Part shown: piece after piece, positions 1,895 to 9,362 of the stretch | Layout: each line of letters opens with the position of its first letter | How positions within the stretch are numbered: the stretch's first letter is position 1 | Origin: a virus | Length of the DNA stretch: 20,059 nucleotides | Direction: 5' to 3' (one strand) | Virus record (IMG/VR): IMGVR_UViG_3300005582_000159 | Location: 1-20,059 of that record | Translations under genes and position numbers: made by a program | The notes under the pieces: generated by a model | The model's input: the letters and a program-made list of their open reading frames with translations, nothing else | The model's database searches: none | Told to the model about the DNA's origin: nothing

Positions 1895-3233
1895 TCTGAT
1901 ACAGTCAACACAGTTTAGTATAAATCAGTTGGCTGTATATACTAAAAGTGGTGAATTACTTGATATATCATCTAGCTTTGGTCAGCTACATTTGTTTGAT
2001 TCAATCTTTGTTCCTGTGATGAATGGTTTCATTACAGTATTTGATTCTGTTGGTCTATCGGATTATCTTAGCTTTGATGGTTCAGAGGTTTTGCTTGTAG
2101 ATTTAAGTAAGTTTGGAGATGGATCAACAAGTTTCAAAAAATCATTTCGTATTAGAAAAATGGCTAACAGAATAAATTTGAATCCATCAACATTGGCCTA
2201 TGATCTGCATTTTGTATCTGATGAGTTAATTTACTCAGATCAACGCAAAGTAAACCAAAAGTATAATGATACATACTCTAACATTGTTGCAAAAATTTTA
2301 TTTGATTATCTAAAGTTACCTACCTTTGCTGGTATCTTTTCTCCATCGTATGGTATAAAAAGTATTGTCATACCAGATTTGTCTCCAATTGATGCAATAC
2401 AATGGTGCACCAACAGAGCAGTAGACGAAAATCTTGGTCCTAGCTTTATGTTCTATGAGAATATTGTTGGCTATAATTTTACCACTCTTTCAAATATACT
2501 AACGCAAGATGCAATATTGGATATCAAATTTTTCCCAAAGAATTTAAACAACACCGAAGCATTAGATGAAATGAGTAGCCCAAGACACTTTGAAGTAATT
2601 AGCAATCCAGATGTTATGAGAAGAACTCGCCAAGGTGTCAATGCAGGTAAGTATTCTGTTTTTGATCCAATAACTAGAACTCTTGGTCACATAGACGAAG
2701 AAAAGACTGTGAATTATCTTGACCATTATCAAACTGTAAAACATGGTAATGATACACCAATGTTTACTGGTATGGTAAACAGAGATAACACCAATAACTT
2801 TGAACAATTTGAAGCGAGAAGAAGTTTTGGTTTCTCTGGAAAGGCTCGTCAAGCAAGTGCATACATAAAGAAAAAAGATCCAACTTCAATCACAACAATT
2901 GATAATCAAGAAGATTTTGTTTTACAAAGACGATCTATTATTGAAAACTTAATATCAAAAAGATTGAAGATGGTCATGCCAGGAAATTTTGAGTTATCAA
3001 GTGGATTCAATGTCAATGTTCTATCACCTGTTTATGGTAAACCAGAAGGTGAAGATCAGTCAGTTAATGGAAAATATTTGATTGTTGCTTCACGACATAT
3101 ACTAGATATTAAAGGTAAATTTGAAACCGTGTTAGAAACCGCTACAACATCTACAGACATTGGGTTTATCGAAGGTGCTTCTGCTACACTTGCAAAGGCT
3201 GCTGTAGAATATGAGGATGATTACTTACGATGA
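1884..3233 (+). CDS. gp27: Baseplate hub ring protein, gp27-like
   Basis: gp27 forms the trimeric ring of the hub that holds the gp5 spike and carries the tail tube. The N-terminal part (residues about 20-75) reads like gp27's first tube-like domain: LFDSIFVPVMNGFITVFDS, then DGSEVLLVDLSK, comparable with the T4 segments ending in LQFYDSK and DGNEIIQISVA. The C-terminal part has VMPGNFELSSGFNVNV (about residues 365-380), then a YLIVASRHILD strand and an ETVLETATTS strand, matching the T4 order of GNFNLTPGVKIIF, YVDEVIHEL and a final T-rich strand. At 449 residues it is somewhat longer than T4 gp27 (391). Its position directly before the spike gene, with a four-base ATGA overlap, fits. The comparison with T4 is from memory; a structure-based search would settle it. 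Confidence 0.83.
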   Translation: MADNLIQSTQFSINQLAVYTKSGELLDISSSFGQLHLFDSIFVPVMNGFITVFDSVGLSDYLSFDGSEVLLVDLSKFGDGSTSFKKSFRIRKMANRINLNPSTLAYDLHFVSDELIYSDQRKVNQKYNDTYSNIVAKILFDYLKLPTFAGIFSPSYGIKSIVIPDLSPIDAIQWCTNRAVDENLGPSFMFYENIVGYNFTTLSNILTQDAILDIKFFPKNLNNTEALDEMSSPRHFEVISNPDVMRRTRQGVNAGKYSVFDPITRTLGHIDEEKTVNYLDHYQTVKHGNDTPMFTGMVNRDNTNNFEQFEARRSFGFSGKARQASAYIKKKDPTSITTIDNQEDFVLQRRSIIENLISKRLKMVMPGNFELSSGFNVNVLSPVYGKPEGEDQSVNGKYLIVASRHILDIKGKFETVLETATTSTDIGFIEGASATLAKAAVEYEDDYLR

Positions 3234-5788
3234 GAAATGCTGAAGATAATACAGATGTAGCAGGTCGCAATGGATTTATTTGGTGGATTGGTACAGTAGA
3301 AAGTAGACAAGATCCACTAAAATTAGGTCGTTGCCAAGTTCGTATTGGTGGTGGGTGGCATTCAGATGTTAGACTGAAAGTACCAACAAAAGATTTACCT
3401 TGGGCAACAGCTTGTCTCCCAGTTAATAATCCAAACCCATATGCACCCAAAGAAGGTGATATGGTATTTGGTTTTTTTCTTGACGGAAACAATGCTCAAC
3501 AGCCAGTAATATTTGGTGTCATGCCAGGCATTCCATTGAAAAAAGCTAATCCGCAAGAAGCATTTAATGATGGTCGTTCTATTAATGAACTTATGGCTGC
3601 GCCAGTTAAACCTGATGAAACGGGTTCTCTTTATCCAAGAAGATTAGATGAACCATCAACATCACGCCTCGCAAGAAATGAAGCTGATTATGCATCACCA
3701 ATAATTAAAAGTAAGAACGATAAGAAATCAAGTACCTTTGAATTACCAACTGCATATAATGCAAGATATCCATATAACAATGCTATGGAATCAGAGTCTG
3801 GTCATGCCATCGAAATAGATGATACACCAAATTCTGAGCGTTTACATTTCTATCATCGTAAAGGATCATATCAAGAATATAGACCAGATGGTAGCGTTCA
3901 AGCAAAAGTTGTCAAAGATAGTTATCAAGCGGTTGATGGGAACAAGAATGTTTACGTCAAAGGAAATTATACTGTCAATGTTGATGGTAATTTGTCGTTT
4001 AATGTAAAGGGGAGTATTAGTGCTATCGCGGGTAGTTCTATAAGCACAAAATCTGGAACCTCAACAGGTATGGTTGCAGGAACAACATGGTCTGCACTTG
4101 CACCAGCATCAGTATCTATGACTACTGCGGGTAAAGCATCAGTTACAGCTGGAAACATGGCATCTATGACAGCTGGAGGTATTGCATCAGTTACAGCTGG
4201 TGCGGCTGCAACTGTAACTGCTGGTGCGGCTGCAACACTCACTGGCGCTACTACATTTGTTACAGGTATAGGTTTAACTACGATATCTGGAGCAACAGTA
4301 AATATTTTAGGTGCACCAGTTGGTGGCGCCGCGGGTGCAGCAGCCGCTGGAGGTGCAGCAGCCGGTGCAGTTGGAGGCGTTGATTTAGCAATAGATGAGT
4401 TAGGGCTGACTAATGTTGTAACCGCTACTGTAGAAGGTGTACCTGTTGCAGTAGGAGGAGTAATAGAACAAGCAGGAGGTGCTTGTTCCACTTTCATAGA
4501 TCCATATACCGCTGCATATGATTTTGGTGATATCGCACCGGGCGCTTTAGACTCTACTACTATTACACAAACTATTGCTGATCCGGCGTTTGGAGACTTA
4601 TCTACAACAACTACTTTTTATCCTGATGGTGGAAATCTTACCGATGTATATGATGCAAATGGCACACTTGTCGATCAAGTTTATCAACCAGGATCAACAG
4701 TTTTAACTGATACTGGATCAGTTATTGGAACTGAAAGTGGTGGATCACTTGTTTCAGGAAATTTAGTAGATAATGGATTTGGTTCACTACCAACTTCTCC
4801 AACCAATATATCTTCTTTTAGTTTTGATAATATAATCTCTAGCGCACAAGAAACTTTTAAAAATGTAGTAGATTCTGTATCAAAAAGTTTTTCAGATATA
4901 ACATCAAAATTTCTTACAGCAACGCCTAGTGAATTAAATGTGGATGGTGGTTTTACAGATACACAATATTTTGAAGATGGTTCTTTCACACAAACAACAA
5001 TGAATGCAGACGGAACTTCTGTATTTCAAGTTTTTGATCCAGAAGGAACAATATTATCTTCAGCAACTGCGGCTGCACCAGCTGGTTTTGCAGATCAGGT
5101 AATAAGTAGAGCGCAAGATGTTGGTAATGCAATGATTGGTGCAGCATCTAAAGTTGATCCATTGAAATATGTAGAACCTGCTGGAAAAAATTTAGCAACA
5201 ACAATAACTCAGCCATTTTTAACTTCTTCCGGTGTTATTGAAAATAGTATGGGTGTATTAACAAATCCTGCTTCTTCTTTTAAAGATAGTTTTGCTGCTG
5301 CTAAAGCTGTGCTTGCAGAAGGTGCTATTCTATACGGACAAGTGTCTACACTCCCAACATTATTAGCAAACCCACAGCAATTGCTTACTCAATATGCTTT
5401 ACCTGCTGCTGATGTTGCCGCTTCTGATTTTACTAGAAATTTAAACAATGCATCGGTAGTTAGTTCTATCAAAGGTGATTTGAAAGATTCGATTGATGGA
5501 TTCACTCAAAAGGTTAAAGATACATATAGTGATACAAGCAAAAGTTTAAATAGTCTAATCAATAAAAGCCTTGATGATTTTGATTTAGAGAGTAAAGCGG
5601 TTGCTGCTGAAGTAGCTGATAATTTAGTAAATTTACGAGAACAAGGTTATACTGAAGCAGATTTGAAACGCATTATGCCAGATGTAATTAAACAATATCC
5701 AGTTGAATTTACAAAAGCATATAAAGGCGCACCAACAACATCAAATGCCGTAGCGGCAGAGTGGGCATCAGGAGGAGTGTTAGTATAA
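3230..5788 (+). CDS. gp5: Central baseplate spike, gp5-like, without lysozyme domain and with long C-terminal extension
   Basis: This is the trimeric needle protein that sits in the gp27 ring. Residues about 14-102 form the gp5/VgrG OB fold (GFIWWIGTVESRQDPLKLGR, LPWATACLPVNNP, GDMVFGFFLDGNN, QPVIFGVMPGIP). Residues about 188-222 carry the VgrG-type signature (SGHAIEIDDTPNSERLHFYH and YRPDGS). Residues 235-361 are about 16 octads, first VxGxxxxx (VDGNKNVY, VKGNYTVN, VDGNLSFN), then Ala/Thr/Gly-rich ones (TAGNMASM, TAGGIASV): the triple beta-helix. The T4 lysozyme domain should lie between OB fold and helix; only about 130 residues are there and none resemble it. After a Gly/Ala run (364-383) about 470 further residues follow, with two copies of a 34-residue repeat and amphipathic helical stretches near the end. 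A GAGGA site 12 bases before the ATG supports the start. Confidence 0.87.
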   Translation: MRNAEDNTDVAGRNGFIWWIGTVESRQDPLKLGRCQVRIGGGWHSDVRLKVPTKDLPWATACLPVNNPNPYAPKEGDMVFGFFLDGNNAQQPVIFGVMPGIPLKKANPQEAFNDGRSINELMAAPVKPDETGSLYPRRLDEPSTSRLARNEADYASPIIKSKNDKKSSTFELPTAYNARYPYNNAMESESGHAIEIDDTPNSERLHFYHRKGSYQEYRPDGSVQAKVVKDSYQAVDGNKNVYVKGNYTVNVDGNLSFNVKGSISAIAGSSISTKSGTSTGMVAGTTWSALAPASVSMTTAGKASVTAGNMASMTAGGIASVTAGAAATVTAGAAATLTGATTFVTGIGLTTISGATVNILGAPVGGAAGAAAAGGAAAGAVGGVDLAIDELGLTNVVTATVEGVPVAVGGVIEQAGGACSTFIDPYTAAYDFGDIAPGALDSTTITQTIADPAFGDLSTTTTFYPDGGNLTDVYDANGTLVDQVYQPGSTVLTDTGSVIGTESGGSLVSGNLVDNGFGSLPTSPTNISSFSFDNIISSAQETFKNVVDSVSKSFSDITSKFLTATPSELNVDGGFTDTQYFEDGSFTQTTMNADGTSVFQVFDPEGTILSSATAAAPAGFADQVISRAQDVGNAMIGAASKVDPLKYVEPAGKNLATTITQPFLTSSGVIENSMGVLTNPASSFKDSFAAAKAVLAEGAILYGQVSTLPTLLANPQQLLTQYALPAADVAASDFTRNLNNASVVSSIKGDLKDSIDGFTQKVKDTYSDTSKSLNSLINKSLDDFDLESKAVAAEVADNLVNLREQGYTEADLKRIMPDVIKQYPVEFTKAYKGAPTTSNAVAAEWASGGVLV
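4136..4255 (+). repeat. 24-bp tandem repeat encoding beta-helix octads of the spike
   Basis: Five successive 24-base units (starting at 4136, 4160, 4184, 4208 and 4232, the last one incomplete) begin GCATC or GCAAC and share a core like ACAGCTGG. They encode octads of the form A-S/T-x-T-A-G-x-x. Units 3 and 4 share an identical 3' end (CTGGTGCGGCT). The period equals eight codons, the octapeptide period of the gp5 needle, so this is a coding repeat that probably expanded by slippage or unequal recombination; it is not a regulatory or CRISPR array. Confidence 0.85.
4604..4705 (+). repeat. Copy 1 of a 34-residue repeat in the spike extension
   Basis: Encodes residues 459-492 of the gp5-like protein, containing FYPDGGNLTDVYDANGTLV. 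Aligned without gaps to 4955-5056 it gives about 13 identities in 34 positions, concentrated in the DG and ANGT/ADGT turns, the QV pair and the PG/PEGT end. The pattern of a DG turn followed by strands resembles short beta-hairpin repeats (the YD-like 'DG..T...D..G' style); this likeness is only suggestive. Confidence 0.6.
4955..5056 (+). repeat. Copy 2 of a 34-residue repeat in the spike extension
   Basis: Encodes residues 576-609 of the gp5-like protein, containing YFEDGSFTQTTMNADGTSVF and then QVFDPEGTIL. It is the second copy of the unit at 4604-4705. The 83 residues between the copies are rich in Ser and Thr and include a probable amphipathic helix (QETFKNVVDSVSKSFSDI). Confidence 0.6.
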
Positions 5789-6084
5789 TGGCAGGTCTTT
5801 TTTCAGTTGCAAGATTTGGTGATCTGGCAGAAGGTGAGATAATACTTCCTTGCCATATGACTGTTTTAATTGGTTCGACTAGCGGTGAAATGGAACCAGC
5901 AGCAATGCCTGGTTCAGTTGTTAGGTCACATGGACTACCACCACATAGTGGAGTAGTGCTTACTCCTATTGTTCCAACAACAGTTTTTATAAATGGGAAA
6001 CCAAATATGATTAGAACGGTTGGTGATCTTGCCTCTTGCGGTCACCTAATAACTACAGGAGCATTGACAGTTTTGTCTACATAA
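5788..6084 (+). CDS. PAAR-like spike-tip protein
   Basis: PAAR proteins fold into a small metal-binding cone that sharpens the tip of gp5/VgrG needles; T4's counterpart is gp5.4. The product is 98 residues. Visible family features are the PAAR-type sequence TVFINGKPNMIRTVGD (about residues 65-80) followed by CGH and a TTGALTVL end strand, plus an HGLPPHSG turn. Cys22, His23, His48, His53, Cys84 and His86 are candidate metal ligands; which ones are used cannot be told from sequence. The start is the ATG whose A is the last base of the spike's TAA stop (TAATG). A strong GGAGGAG site at 5771-5777 lies 10 bases upstream. A GTG at 5761 is in frame but lies before that site, so the ATG is preferred. 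Its place right after the spike gene supports the role. Confidence 0.85.
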   Translation: MAGLFSVARFGDLAEGEIILPCHMTVLIGSTSGEMEPAAMPGSVVRSHGLPPHSGVVLTPIVPTTVFINGKPNMIRTVGDLASCGHLITTGALTVLST

Positions 6085-6086
6085 TT

Positions 6087-6881
6087 ATGGCTAAAATATT
6101 TACTCGTTTAGAATACAATTTTAATTCTGAAAAATTTGGTGATGCTAATGATCCAACTGGTGAATTGGAAGCATCATTAGAAAGAATTAAACCACTTTTA
6201 CACAAGTGGCAGTTTGATGCATTGGCAAACAATGATGTATCTGGCTACTTGCAGAATCCATTAGCCAATACAACCATCGAAATGAATTCGTATGCTACCA
6301 GTATGAAAAATTTTGCATCTACAGTTACCTTCGATATAGCTGGAAATGCAAAGATGATAGGCGTTTCTACATCATTGGTTAGCGAGATATCATCATTTCA
6401 AGCGCATTGTAATAGAATATCTGGAGTAACAGCAACTACTGATCCCACTTTGCCAGACTTTGAATCGGCTTTAGGGATAGGTGAATTTGTTCAACTAATA
6501 GTATCATCATATGATGGGATAATGAACAATACTCCAGTTTTGGGTAGCATGACCAGTCTTTTTGTTCAGCCAGAACTGTCTGCTAATTTGATTACACTTA
6601 CAAACGATTCTGCTACACTCAATGCAACCTTCACTAATCTTTTAGATGGCGGATCAAATTCTCTAATATCTATAGTTTCAAATCAGGCTCTCTGTGATGA
6701 TATGAATACAGTAACCTCATTTTTGAGTACCAGAAGAACATCTGATGTTAATTATTACGGAAAAGCTAGAGACCTAATAAATGATTATGGAATAATTTCT
6801 CGATTTACTGCATTTAGTCCACTAAAATTATACCTAACGGAAAACTACATTGGCACCGATAAACTCAAAAGTAAGTTATAA
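6087..6881 (+). CDS. Unrecognised protein between spike tip and gp25
   Basis: I do not recognise this 264-residue protein. The ATG at 6087, two bases after the PAAR stop, is preferred to an in-frame TTG at 6036 inside the PAAR gene. No signal peptide or transmembrane segment stands out. The N-terminal third is charged and probably helical (GELEASLERIKPLLHKWQFD); the middle is rich in Ser, Thr, Asn and Ala with probable helices (MKNFASTVTFDIAGNAKMIG; FVQLIVSSYDGIMN); the C-terminal part, NYYGKARDLINDYGIISRFT, reads as mixed helix. Its place in an uninterrupted baseplate operon makes a structural or assembly role likely. By position it could replace one of the small T4 hub or chaperone genes (26, 28, 51), but no residue pattern supports any one of them. 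Confidence 0.75.
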   Translation: MAKIFTRLEYNFNSEKFGDANDPTGELEASLERIKPLLHKWQFDALANNDVSGYLQNPLANTTIEMNSYATSMKNFASTVTFDIAGNAKMIGVSTSLVSEISSFQAHCNRISGVTATTDPTLPDFESALGIGEFVQLIVSSYDGIMNNTPVLGSMTSLFVQPELSANLITLTNDSATLNATFTNLLDGGSNSLISIVSNQALCDDMNTVTSFLSTRRTSDVNYYGKARDLINDYGIISRFTAFSPLKLYLTENYIGTDKLKSKL

Positions 6882-6888: not shown

Positions 6889-7293
6889 ATGGCAACCGTA
6901 ACGATAGAATCTACAAGAAATTATAGAGACTTGGATCTCAATTTTTCTATTCATCCAGTCAAAAAAGACATTAACGTAAATGTTAATGAGTATGCTATCA
7001 TCAATTCAGTAAAAAATTTAGTGTTAACTAATTTTTACGAAAGACCCTTTAGACCTGACATTGGAAGTAATATTCGAAGCCTTCTGTTTGAACTTGTTAC
7101 ACCACTTACCGCAAATCAAATAGAGAGAGCCATACAAGAAACAATTACAAATTATGAACCTAGAGTAAACATCAGAACAGTAAAAGCTACTCCAAGTCAA
7201 GATGAGAATGGATACAATGTGAATATGGAATTCTTTATTGTTAATCTAACAACACCTATAACTATAGACTTTTTCTTGCAACGGATTAGATAA
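6889..7293 (+). CDS. gp25: Baseplate wedge protein gp25
   Basis: gp25 is the most conserved wedge protein of contractile systems (T4 gp25, TssE in type VI secretion); it binds gp6 and gp53 in the inner baseplate and templates sheath assembly. The 134-residue product is almost exactly T4 length (132). Typical features are RDLDLNFSIHPVKKDINV near the start, the AIINSVKNLVLTNFYERPFR helix and turn with following DIGSNIRSLLFE (about residues 38-67), and the NYEPRVNI segment holding the family EPR motif (about residues 89-96), after which a two-strand sheet ends the protein. The start is the ATG seven bases after the previous stop; no good ribosome site is visible. gp6 starts two bases after its stop, the same pairing as in T4. 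Confidence 0.95.
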   Translation: MATVTIESTRNYRDLDLNFSIHPVKKDINVNVNEYAIINSVKNLVLTNFYERPFRPDIGSNIRSLLFELVTPLTANQIERAIQETITNYEPRVNIRTVKATPSQDENGYNVNMEFFIVNLTTPITIDFFLQRIR

Positions 7294-7295
7294 AA

Positions 7296-9362
7296 ATGGC
7301 AGACCGTCTAAGAGTAACAGAACTTGATTTTGATACAATCAAGAACAATTTAAAAACATTTCTAAGCCAACAAACTGAATTTACTGATTATGATTTTGAA
7401 GGTTCTGGCTTAAGTGTATTGCTAGATATTTTAGCTTACAACACACATTACAACGCATATTATCTGAATATGGTTGCTAATGAATCATTTATGGATACGG
7501 CTCTACTACGCAGTTCTGCTGTATCTCACGCAAAACTTTTAAACTATGTACCATACTCTACTACTGCACCTATAGCTATAGTTAATCTTACTGTGTTCTC
7601 AGGAATTACAACTCCTGGAACTATGACTTTACCAGCTGGATATAATTTTCTATCAGAGTTGATTGATGGTAAATCATACAATTTTGTTTTGAATGAATCA
7701 GTTACTGTTACAAAATCAAATGATACCTACTACTTTGAAAATTTAGAAATATACGAAGGTCAAAGAGTATCATATATTTTCAATTACACTCAAGCTTCTA
7801 ACCCAAAACAAGTTTTTGTTTTGCCAGATGAAAATGTAGATATTAAAACGATAAGTGTCATTGTTGCTCCATCTTCTACAAGTTCTATTTCAACCAAATA
7901 TAACAAAGTTACCGATGTTTTAGATGTAGAACCTACCTCTGAAGTTTTCTTTTTAGAAGAAAATTTAGTAGGTAAATATCAAATAAGTTTTGGTAATGAT
8001 GTTGTTGGTAAAAAACTTCCTGACGGTGCAGTAATTACAACAAATTACATTGTGACAAATGCTACCGCAGCAAATAAAGCAAACAATTTCTTGGCTCTAC
8101 AAACTATAGTTGATAGTGTAGGAAGTACCCAATCAAACTTTACAGTAACTCCAGTATCTGCTGCATCAGGTGGTTCAGCAAGAGAATCTGTAGACAATAT
8201 TAAATTTTCAGCACCTTCTCAATTCGCTACACAGAATCGTTTGGTAACATTTAAAGATTATGAAACTTACATACTAAACAACTATCCAAATATTGGTTCT
8301 ATATCAGTATGGGGAGGAGAAGATAATGTTCCGCCTGTTTACGGAACAGTTTTCGTTTCTCTAAAACCAAAAAATAATTATTACATATCTGCTGCCGAAA
8401 AGCAGAGAATAATTGATGAAATTATTAAACCCAAAGCAATCGTAAGTACCGGTTGTATTATTCGTGATCCAGAATTTTTGTATTTAGTTTTAGAAAATCA
8501 AGTTGAATATAATCCAAATAAAACTATAACTTCAGAAGAATCTTTAAAGAATATAATTAGAAGTGCTATATTAAATTATTCAACAACTTATTTGAATAAA
8601 TTTGGTTCTAAATTTGTATTATCTAAAATGCAAGAGGCAATAGACAGTTCTCAATCAACCTCTATCATTGGTTCTAGAACTAACCTTCGTGTTCAAAAAA
8701 GATTTGTTCCATCTTTAAATGAAACAAAAACTTATATCATTAATTTTAGTGTTCCTGTTCATAGAGGCGGTTCTAATGATAGAATGATATCTTCACAATT
8801 TGATGTTTTTGATATTACTGGCGTAAGAAGAACTGTTTCTTTGGAAGAGATACAGGGATCATATACAGGCATTTCTTCAATTCCTGTAACAAATCCAGGA
8901 ACAGGTTATCTAACAACACCAATCGTCACTATCACTGGTGATGGTACAGGCGCTACAGCCGAAGCCGTTGTTGTGAATGGTGCAATTGAAAGTATTGTCA
9001 TAACTAATAGAGGTATAGATTATACTCGCGCTATAGTTACAATTACTAATACTGGTTCTGGTTACGGAGCCGCTGCGTCAGCCATTATAGATACACGATA
9101 TGGTTATCTAAGAACAATTTACTATGATACAAATGCACAAAGGCAGATTGTAAATACTAATATTGGCAATATTGATTATGATCAAGGTATAGTTACCATC
9201 GATGCAATTAAAATTTTATCAGTCAGCACAACAGACGGTTATATTAGACTTTCTTTTGAATCAGATAAAGGCATAATTTCAACAACAAGAGATACCATCA
9301 TCACAATAGATGAAGATGATCCTGCCTCAATAGTTACTACAATAGAAAAATCTTACAGTTAA
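7296..9362 (+). CDS. gp6: Baseplate wedge protein gp6 with Gly-rich insertion
   Basis: gp6 dimers form the continuous inner ring that ties the six wedges together and drives the baseplate's change of shape. The N-terminal region is diagnostic: FEGSGLSVLLDILAYNTHYN, then ANESFMDTALLRSSAVSHAK and LLNYVPYSTTAP (residues about 29-90), as in gp6/gpJ-type wedge proteins. RLVTFKDYETYILNNYPNIG (about 312-331) and VFVSLKP match the second conserved block. At 688 residues it is a little longer than T4 gp6 (660). Residues 531-598 form a Gly-rich module (NPGTGYLTTPIVTITGDGTG and NTGSGYGAAASA), which recurs in the next three large proteins and is not part of T4 gp6. The stop and the next start overlap by one base (TAATG). 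Confidence 0.93.
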   Translation: MADRLRVTELDFDTIKNNLKTFLSQQTEFTDYDFEGSGLSVLLDILAYNTHYNAYYLNMVANESFMDTALLRSSAVSHAKLLNYVPYSTTAPIAIVNLTVFSGITTPGTMTLPAGYNFLSELIDGKSYNFVLNESVTVTKSNDTYYFENLEIYEGQRVSYIFNYTQASNPKQVFVLPDENVDIKTISVIVAPSSTSSISTKYNKVTDVLDVEPTSEVFFLEENLVGKYQISFGNDVVGKKLPDGAVITTNYIVTNATAANKANNFLALQTIVDSVGSTQSNFTVTPVSAASGGSARESVDNIKFSAPSQFATQNRLVTFKDYETYILNNYPNIGSISVWGGEDNVPPVYGTVFVSLKPKNNYYISAAEKQRIIDEIIKPKAIVSTGCIIRDPEFLYLVLENQVEYNPNKTITSEESLKNIIRSAILNYSTTYLNKFGSKFVLSKMQEAIDSSQSTSIIGSRTNLRVQKRFVPSLNETKTYIINFSVPVHRGGSNDRMISSQFDVFDITGVRRTVSLEEIQGSYTGISSIPVTNPGTGYLTTPIVTITGDGTGATAEAVVVNGAIESIVITNRGIDYTRAIVTITNTGSGYGAAASAIIDTRYGYLRTIYYDTNAQRQIVNTNIGNIDYDQGIVTIDAIKILSVSTTDGYIRLSFESDKGIISTTRDTIITIDEDDPASIVTTIEKSYS
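8886..9089 (+). repeat. GxGY Gly-rich module inside gp6
   Basis: Residues 531-598 of gp6. Two half-repeats can be read: VTNPGTGYLTTPIVTITGDG followed by TGATAEAVV, then ITNRGIDYTRAIVTITNTGS followed by GYGAAASAII. Each starts with an (I/V)-T-N-x-G-x-x-Y turn, has an (I)VTIT strand and ends in an Ala-rich strand. Similar units occur in the gp7-like, gp8 and DUF4815-like products. Confidence 0.7.

Follow-up and report, generated by a model that had tools for sequence, protein, structure and literature searches.

In phage T4, the proteins gp26, gp51, and gp28 are encoded in or near the hub gene clusters and are comparable in size to the product of gene X, the gene studied here. Both gp26 and gp51 match the Pfam family PF12322, and gp51 acts as a hub assembly chaperone that is absent from the finished particle. 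According to a review on T4, the gp5 needle carries at its tip a protein of about 23 kDa that has not been identified (PMC3004832); in the phages analyzed here, a PAAR-like protein would be the more natural candidate for this place.

The second described family with which X can be compared is DUF7217, i.e., PF23854 in Pfam, and phrog_2114 along with the C-terminal part of phrog_289 in PHROGs, which gave tblastn matches in 579 phage records. ORF129 of phage LIMEstone1 is a member of this family (E 2.6e-93) and is annotated in its record as a confirmed structural protein: the 25.03 kDa product was detected in virions by mass spectrometry, with two unique peptides and 18.18% coverage (PMC3296691). 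ORF047 of the Felix O1-like phage VpaE1 is also a DUF7217 protein. Unlike X, the DUF7217 gene lies outside the interval between gp5 and gp25 in aagejoakim, where it is located away from the gp25 and gp6 genes, and in Felix O1, where some 16 kb separate it from the baseplate genes. Directly 5' of it in aagejoakim is a gene annotated as GTP-binding, and in phrog_289 a GTP-binding part is joined to the DUF7217 part (noted at L106:5517-6948). A DUF7217 gene resembling the Felix O1 type is also present in a record named Staphylococcus phage SA1 (GU169904.1:62417-63118), which is an odd host label. Neither "DUF7217" nor "PF23854" was found mentioned by name in the literature searched.

Gene X occupies positions 6087-6881 on the plus strand of the window, by which we mean the entire 20,059-base virus record analyzed, and encodes a 264-aa protein predicted to be all-helical. 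The mechanical ORF call starts at a TTG codon at 6036 and gives 281 aa, but the shorter reading from the ATG at 6087 is the better one, since most of the aligned relatives start at this ATG or a few residues from it. All the neighboring genes are on the plus strand: the gp5 spike gene (3230-5788) and the PAAR-like spike tip gene (5788-6084) precede X, with a gap of 2 nt between the PAAR stop and X, and the gp25 wedge gene (6889-7293) follows after 7 nt, next to a gp6-like wedge gene (7296-9362). The identities of gp48, gp53, gp5, and gp25 in the window are backed by family matches (Pfam, PHROGs), and that of gp6 by tblastn matches to annotated gp6 genes; that of PAAR is weakly supported (PHROGs E 2.7e-5; below the cutoff in Pfam). 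The name gp27 is a label given in this analysis to a gene whose PHROGs family is named merely "tail protein". In the gp5 protein of the window, the OB domain runs almost directly into the beta-helix, with no space for a T4-type lysozyme domain, and there is a long C-terminal extension.

Four conserved segments were identified in X by aligning 40 sequences. The motif Y-x-x-N-P (residues 54-58, positions 6246-6260, plus strand) lies directly before the helical bundle; P58 is invariant, and Y54 and N57 are conserved in at least 90% of the sequences. The segment F-x-x-H-x-x-R-x-S-G-V (residues 104-114, 6396-6428, plus strand) is strong among the nearer relatives, its H, R, S, and G residues being invariant in 11 sequences, while among the 40 only S112 reaches at least 90%. 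The third segment (residues 142-157, 6510-6557, plus strand) includes D143, G144, N147, G153, T156, and S157, of which N147, G153, and S157 are invariant in the 40 sequences, as is G256 in the C-terminal motif E-N-Y-I-G-T-D-K-L (residues 252-260, 6840-6866, plus strand). The window protein shows no membrane-like stretch, the highest mean hydropathy over 19 residues being 1.13.

The original prediction, made from the sequence of the window, described X as a mid-sized full-length gene without a recognised family, and this description holds: no significant match was obtained in Pfam, PHROGs, or 50,697 phage records. The PHROGs search with X gave no families at E≤1, that in Pfam gave just two matches, both far below the cutoffs, and tblastn against the phage records returned only two unrelated matches (E 2 and 6). 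The distant relative L062 likewise gave nothing at E≤1 in these records, and the matches of L052, in which X is fused to an extension, were confined to the extension (E 0.04 or worse). X was not found by a profile search in 14 named phage records, nor was any cultured carrier found; a low-sensitivity test of bacterial and archaeal genome contigs with a single peptide pattern gave 14 fitting stretches, none of which was confirmed. The best family match of X and its relatives was phrog_9886 (6 of 11 members at E≤10, best E 0.0012); this candidate was dropped, the match being limited to positions 18-89 of a 940-position model which also gives matches in the Bacillus subtilis control. The profile and structure searches proposed along with the original prediction were run, and yielded neither a significant match to a sequence family nor a clear match to a solved structure.

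In IMG/VR, 17 X loci were obtained with a protein query, 55 with a profile, and 97 with a wider profile, 80 of which were kept, and two more were found via a slot neighbor. The total of 126 loci includes many refetched contigs and amounts to 87 distinct X DNA sequences, some of which are truncated. These loci were picked by X itself and not by gene context, and their context is constant: gp25 lies 3' of X in all the 80 copies testable (those with 500 or more bases downstream), and in all the 66 with 1500 or more bases upstream, X is preceded by a match to gp5, PAAR, or gp27. In one carrier (L006, 2579-4985), the gp5 matches are split over several ORFs (an OB part of 99 aa, two of 104 and 321 aa, and a beta-helix part of 302 aa); no PAAR match was detected there at E 1e-4, and the gene directly 5' of X is the gp5 beta-helix part.

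The reverse test, starting from gp25, covered the best 80 of at least 596 confirmed loci: X is present in 9 and missing from 65, and the remaining 6 are too short for a decision. The X-negative loci each have at least 400 bases upstream, and L147 was counted as positive with 340 bases upstream only. Twelve X-negative contigs were searched whole; 11 gave no X match, and the other gave a weak one (15.8 bits) in its 520-aa slot gene. The gp25-anchored count and these whole-contig searches show X to be lineage-restricted. The fixed-looking place noticed in the original prediction is therefore confirmed among the carriers, where the gene order is kept in every testable copy, but it does not extend to the relatives at large, and the absence of X at this locus in close relatives, which was to count against the prediction, was partly observed in these best 80 loci.

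The tree of gp25+gp6 consisted of 77 rows, the remainder of 123 once near-copies had been removed, with 32 X-positive and 45 X-negative rows (8 of the 45 being named phages); L195 and L196 were scored as X-negative, even though the gene in their slot is possibly a relative. The presence of X on this tree requires four changes, at least three of which are forced by well-supported branches, as compared with a mean of 25 changes when presence was shuffled (none of the 500 shuffles was as low as four). The few changes point to a mostly vertical inheritance of X, with few gains or losses. The distances in X and gp25+gp6 are correlated (Mantel r 0.68, 29 rows, none of 2000 permutations as high; three X-positive rows were omitted, not being in alignment A2 under that name), the two trees are correlated without being identical, and X changes about 1.8 times faster than gp25+gp6 (mean distance ratio 1.77).

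Where X is absent, its place is taken by other genes or by none. In the 14 of the 65 X-negative loci of which the ORFs were listed, the gp5-gp25 interval contains a PAAR-like gene only, nothing, or other genes, and in named phages the annotations found there are 2OG-Fe(II) oxygenase, ferredoxin, and nuclease-like protein. At L019:6401-6981, L020:5540-6979, and L076:3474-4567, genes of named phages with these annotations or that of a toxin lie between or beside PAAR and gp25. The PAAR-gp25 interval seems to be prone to extra genes, and since named phages hold enzyme-annotated genes there, position alone is no proof of a structural role.

In two X-negative loci (L196:3451-5013 and L195:3430-5004), the gp5-gp25 slot contains a protein of 520-524 aa that belongs to no known family. 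These proteins are twice as long as X, but they share with it the segment HTDR(I/L)SGI, and the X profile matched them with hmmsearch E 0.0012 and 0.023, the next, unrelated match having an E of 0.048; with hhalign, X against this type of protein gave E 5.7e-4 and a probability of 30%. These scores are borderline, and the likeness may mean that the slot protein is a diverged X or may be coincidental. Part of the L195 protein matches a tail fibre protein of Synechococcus phage S-SM2 (E 9e-5).

The gap between X and the gp25 match exceeds 1.5 kb in eight copies. Seven of these correspond to an in-frame extension of X by about 500 residues (7 of the 87 distinct X sequences, three of them with the start of X cut off), and the eighth, of 2.5 kb, is in keeping with L040, where two additional genes of 432 and 365 aa lie between X and gp25 (L040:6801-9198). 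The extensions come from few lineages, six of the seven being 93-100% alike and L056 70%. Part of the extension is similar to sequences within the L034 and L037 wedge gene and within the SynMITS9220M01 gene directly behind gp5, with E values of 7e-6 to 2e-4 in a small local database.

X is under purifying selection, as judged from dN/dS values of 0.127, 0.156, 0.196, and 0.132 against L025, L026, L028, and L004, respectively, with dS amounting to 1.9 for L028 and 2.9 for L004; the comparison with L027 was saturated. The amino acid identity between L026 and the window is 81% in PAAR, 88% in X, 66% in gp25, and 65% in gp6, and the opposite pattern is seen with L027 (X 52%, gp25 87%), the sliding DNA identity switching at the X-gp25 border in both directions. 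In the comparison with L032, a second switch occurs inside gp5, near 4150: the DNA identity is 54-67% in a block that starts in gp5 at about 4200 and runs through PAAR and X, and it is 72-89% on either side, as far as the end of gp6. The divergent block thus takes in, besides PAAR and X, the C-terminal part of gp5 with its long extension. Faster change, rather than exchange, could account for part of the L032 block, but not for the L026 pattern.

The quartet consisting of the window (W), L026, L004, and L028 was then scored for the splits W+L026, W+L028, and W+L004, in this order. The counts were 27:1:3 in PAAR and 72:10:6 in X (27 of 31 and 72 of 88 informative sites in favor of W+L026), and 6:45:3 in gp25 and 29:230:23 in gp6 codons 1-535 (45 of 54 and 230 of 282 in favor of W+L028), the first 535 codons of gp6 thus sharing the history of gp25. 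At the sequence level, there is a recombination break between X and gp25, X grouping with PAAR and against gp25-gp6. The identity switches and the quartet counts therefore indicate that in these phages, the history of X is that of the spike side and not that of the wedge side. X is not locked to PAAR, however, since L025 pairs a diverged PAAR (77%) with a near-identical X (95%).

These data bear on the idea that X might be an unrelated passenger, lodged by chance in the variable interval that separates the spike from the wedge genes. The different genes, or none, found there in named phages and in the 14 listed X-negative contigs would be in keeping with a passenger, but the purifying selection on X, its fixed context (80/80 and 66/66), its few gains and losses, the history it shares with PAAR, and the fact that none of the testable copies was found outside the slot make this explanation very improbable.

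The structural model of the window X, based on the alignment of 40 sequences, is nearly all helical with a pLDDT of 89.2, and that of L062, based on 36 sequences, is all-helical with a pLDDT of 93.6; the alignments behind the two models overlap, and the models are not fully independent. In a search among viral predictions, DUF7217 proteins ranked first and third with the window model (best E 3.2e-3, probability 1.00) and second and fourth with the L062 model (best E 4.0e-4, probability 1.00); an unnamed protein entry ranked second and first, respectively, and a 475-aa protein of Salmonella phage 38 third with L062. One further DUF7217 entry came only at rank 26 for the L062 model (E 0.75). The TM values by query between the X models and DUF7217 were 0.44-0.58, with predicted models on both sides. 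According to these models, the overall fold of X appears to be the same as that of DUF7217. Among solved structures, Foldseek gave no match to the window model at E≤0.001, realignment gave best Z values of 10.4 (window) and 10.5 (L062), within the helical-bundle background stated for the tool, and the best sequence-profile match of X had an E of 0.51.

The sequences of the two families also show some likenesses. DUF7217 has a similar size (242 aa, as compared with 264 aa), a motif F-S-N-P near the N terminus comparable to the Y-x-x-N-P of X, although about 40 residues closer to the N terminus, and a C terminus IGTPEL/IATPEM resembling the E-N-Y-I-G-T-D-K-L of X. Among 680 other ORFs of at least 200 aa, the NP motif occurred in 30 and the C-terminal motif in nine, all of them DUF7217 loci; the motif was written after both families had been inspected, and this control speaks to its rarity only. 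The Pfam model PF23854 gave no match at E≤1 for X or for six relatives and none at E≤0.01 for L223, and in 12 contigs (six of them X carriers) it gave none above cutoff, the sub-cutoff matches occurring only in another gene of one carrier. In hhalign comparisons with default settings, only 11-12 C-terminal columns of X and DUF7217 were aligned (probability 3.4% and 2.3%), and permissive settings did not raise the probability. Because the profile comparison gives no homology support beyond the C-terminal motif, our claim is restricted to a shared predicted fold, DUF7217 being possibly a distant relative.

Another possibility is that X might be a cargo or effector delivered with the spike tip, with the cell envelope or the host interior as its site of action. 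X adjoins PAAR and has a history in common with it, its rate of change exceeds that of gp25+gp6, and its structural look-alikes include long-helix proteins such as IncA; but the matches to solved structures are generic helical bundles within the background of the tool, X has no membrane-like stretch, and in L006 it lies directly behind the gp5 beta-helix part, with no PAAR match at the threshold used. We consider a role of this kind unlikely.

The original prediction had also suggested that X might be a diverged replacement for gp26, gp28, or gp51 of T4. None of these three is visible in the window, which is a 20-kb fragment, and the size of X is comparable, but the larger records do not support the suggestion. 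A PF12322 gene was found above cutoff in all ten records searched, namely two X-carrying contigs (108.7 and 76.8 kb) and eight named phages; X was searched for in five of these eight and in three others, with no match. Since the gene is present in both carriers and all eight named phages, carriers and non-carriers look alike in this respect. The gp28 family (PF11110) was detected in T4 only, among 11 records with and without X (two carriers, two non-carrier contigs, T4, and six other named phages), the contigs being fragments, from which its absence is not proof. X itself, with which PF12322 coexists, belongs to neither family, as neither PF12322 nor PF11110 was listed for it at E≤1. A replacement of this kind is hardly credible.

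A hub assembly chaperone which, like T4 gp51, builds or docks the spike and is then absent from the finished particle would suit the position of X among hub genes and its common history with the spike. However, the PF12322 gene, of the gp26/gp51 family, is still present in both the carrier contigs tested, a chaperone would not usually be fused to a partly wedge-like extension, as X is in 7 of 87 copies, the family closest in fold includes the LIMEstone1 virion protein, and many relatives do without X. This explanation therefore seems rather unlikely to us.

Since its place is kept, its ancestry is common with that of the spike genes where neighboring genes have recombined, and its predicted shape is like that of a known virion protein, X probably forms an additional component of the tail tip. 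The reading we prefer, with a probability of roughly 0.55, is that X is an accessory of the hub and spike residing in the virion: a compact helical bundle associated with the gp5-PAAR spike and placed on it or next to it. The new baseplate part envisaged in the original prediction is thus plausible, and its fixed slot in all the testable copies speaks for it; the presence of X in the particle is suggested by the analogy with DUF7217 and by the fusions. Judging from linkage, its partner may be the C-terminal part of gp5, PAAR, or both, the conserved terminal motifs possibly serving as contacts. A plausible mechanism is that X would seat or brace the spike of its lineage in the hub; the spike and X would consequently tend to be exchanged together. 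Lineages without X have other genes in the slot, or none. In a bolder version of this accessory role, which is possible but doubtful, X would be a lineage-specific module of the spike tip, exchanged as a unit with the C-terminal part of gp5 and PAAR, which is the first to contact or enter the host envelope and helps to set which targets can be punctured, and in ackermannviruses and Felix O1-like phages, the same class would be represented by DUF7217, a dispersed relative.

X is an undescribed, conserved family present in some T4-like lineages of uncultivated phages, and adds a new protein family at the center of their T4-type baseplate gene cluster. It is tied by its predicted fold to DUF7217, a family found in hundreds of phage records, one member of which is a virion protein according to mass spectrometry. 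The exchange which X appears to have in common with the spike provides a testable link between a gene of unknown function and the puncturing device.
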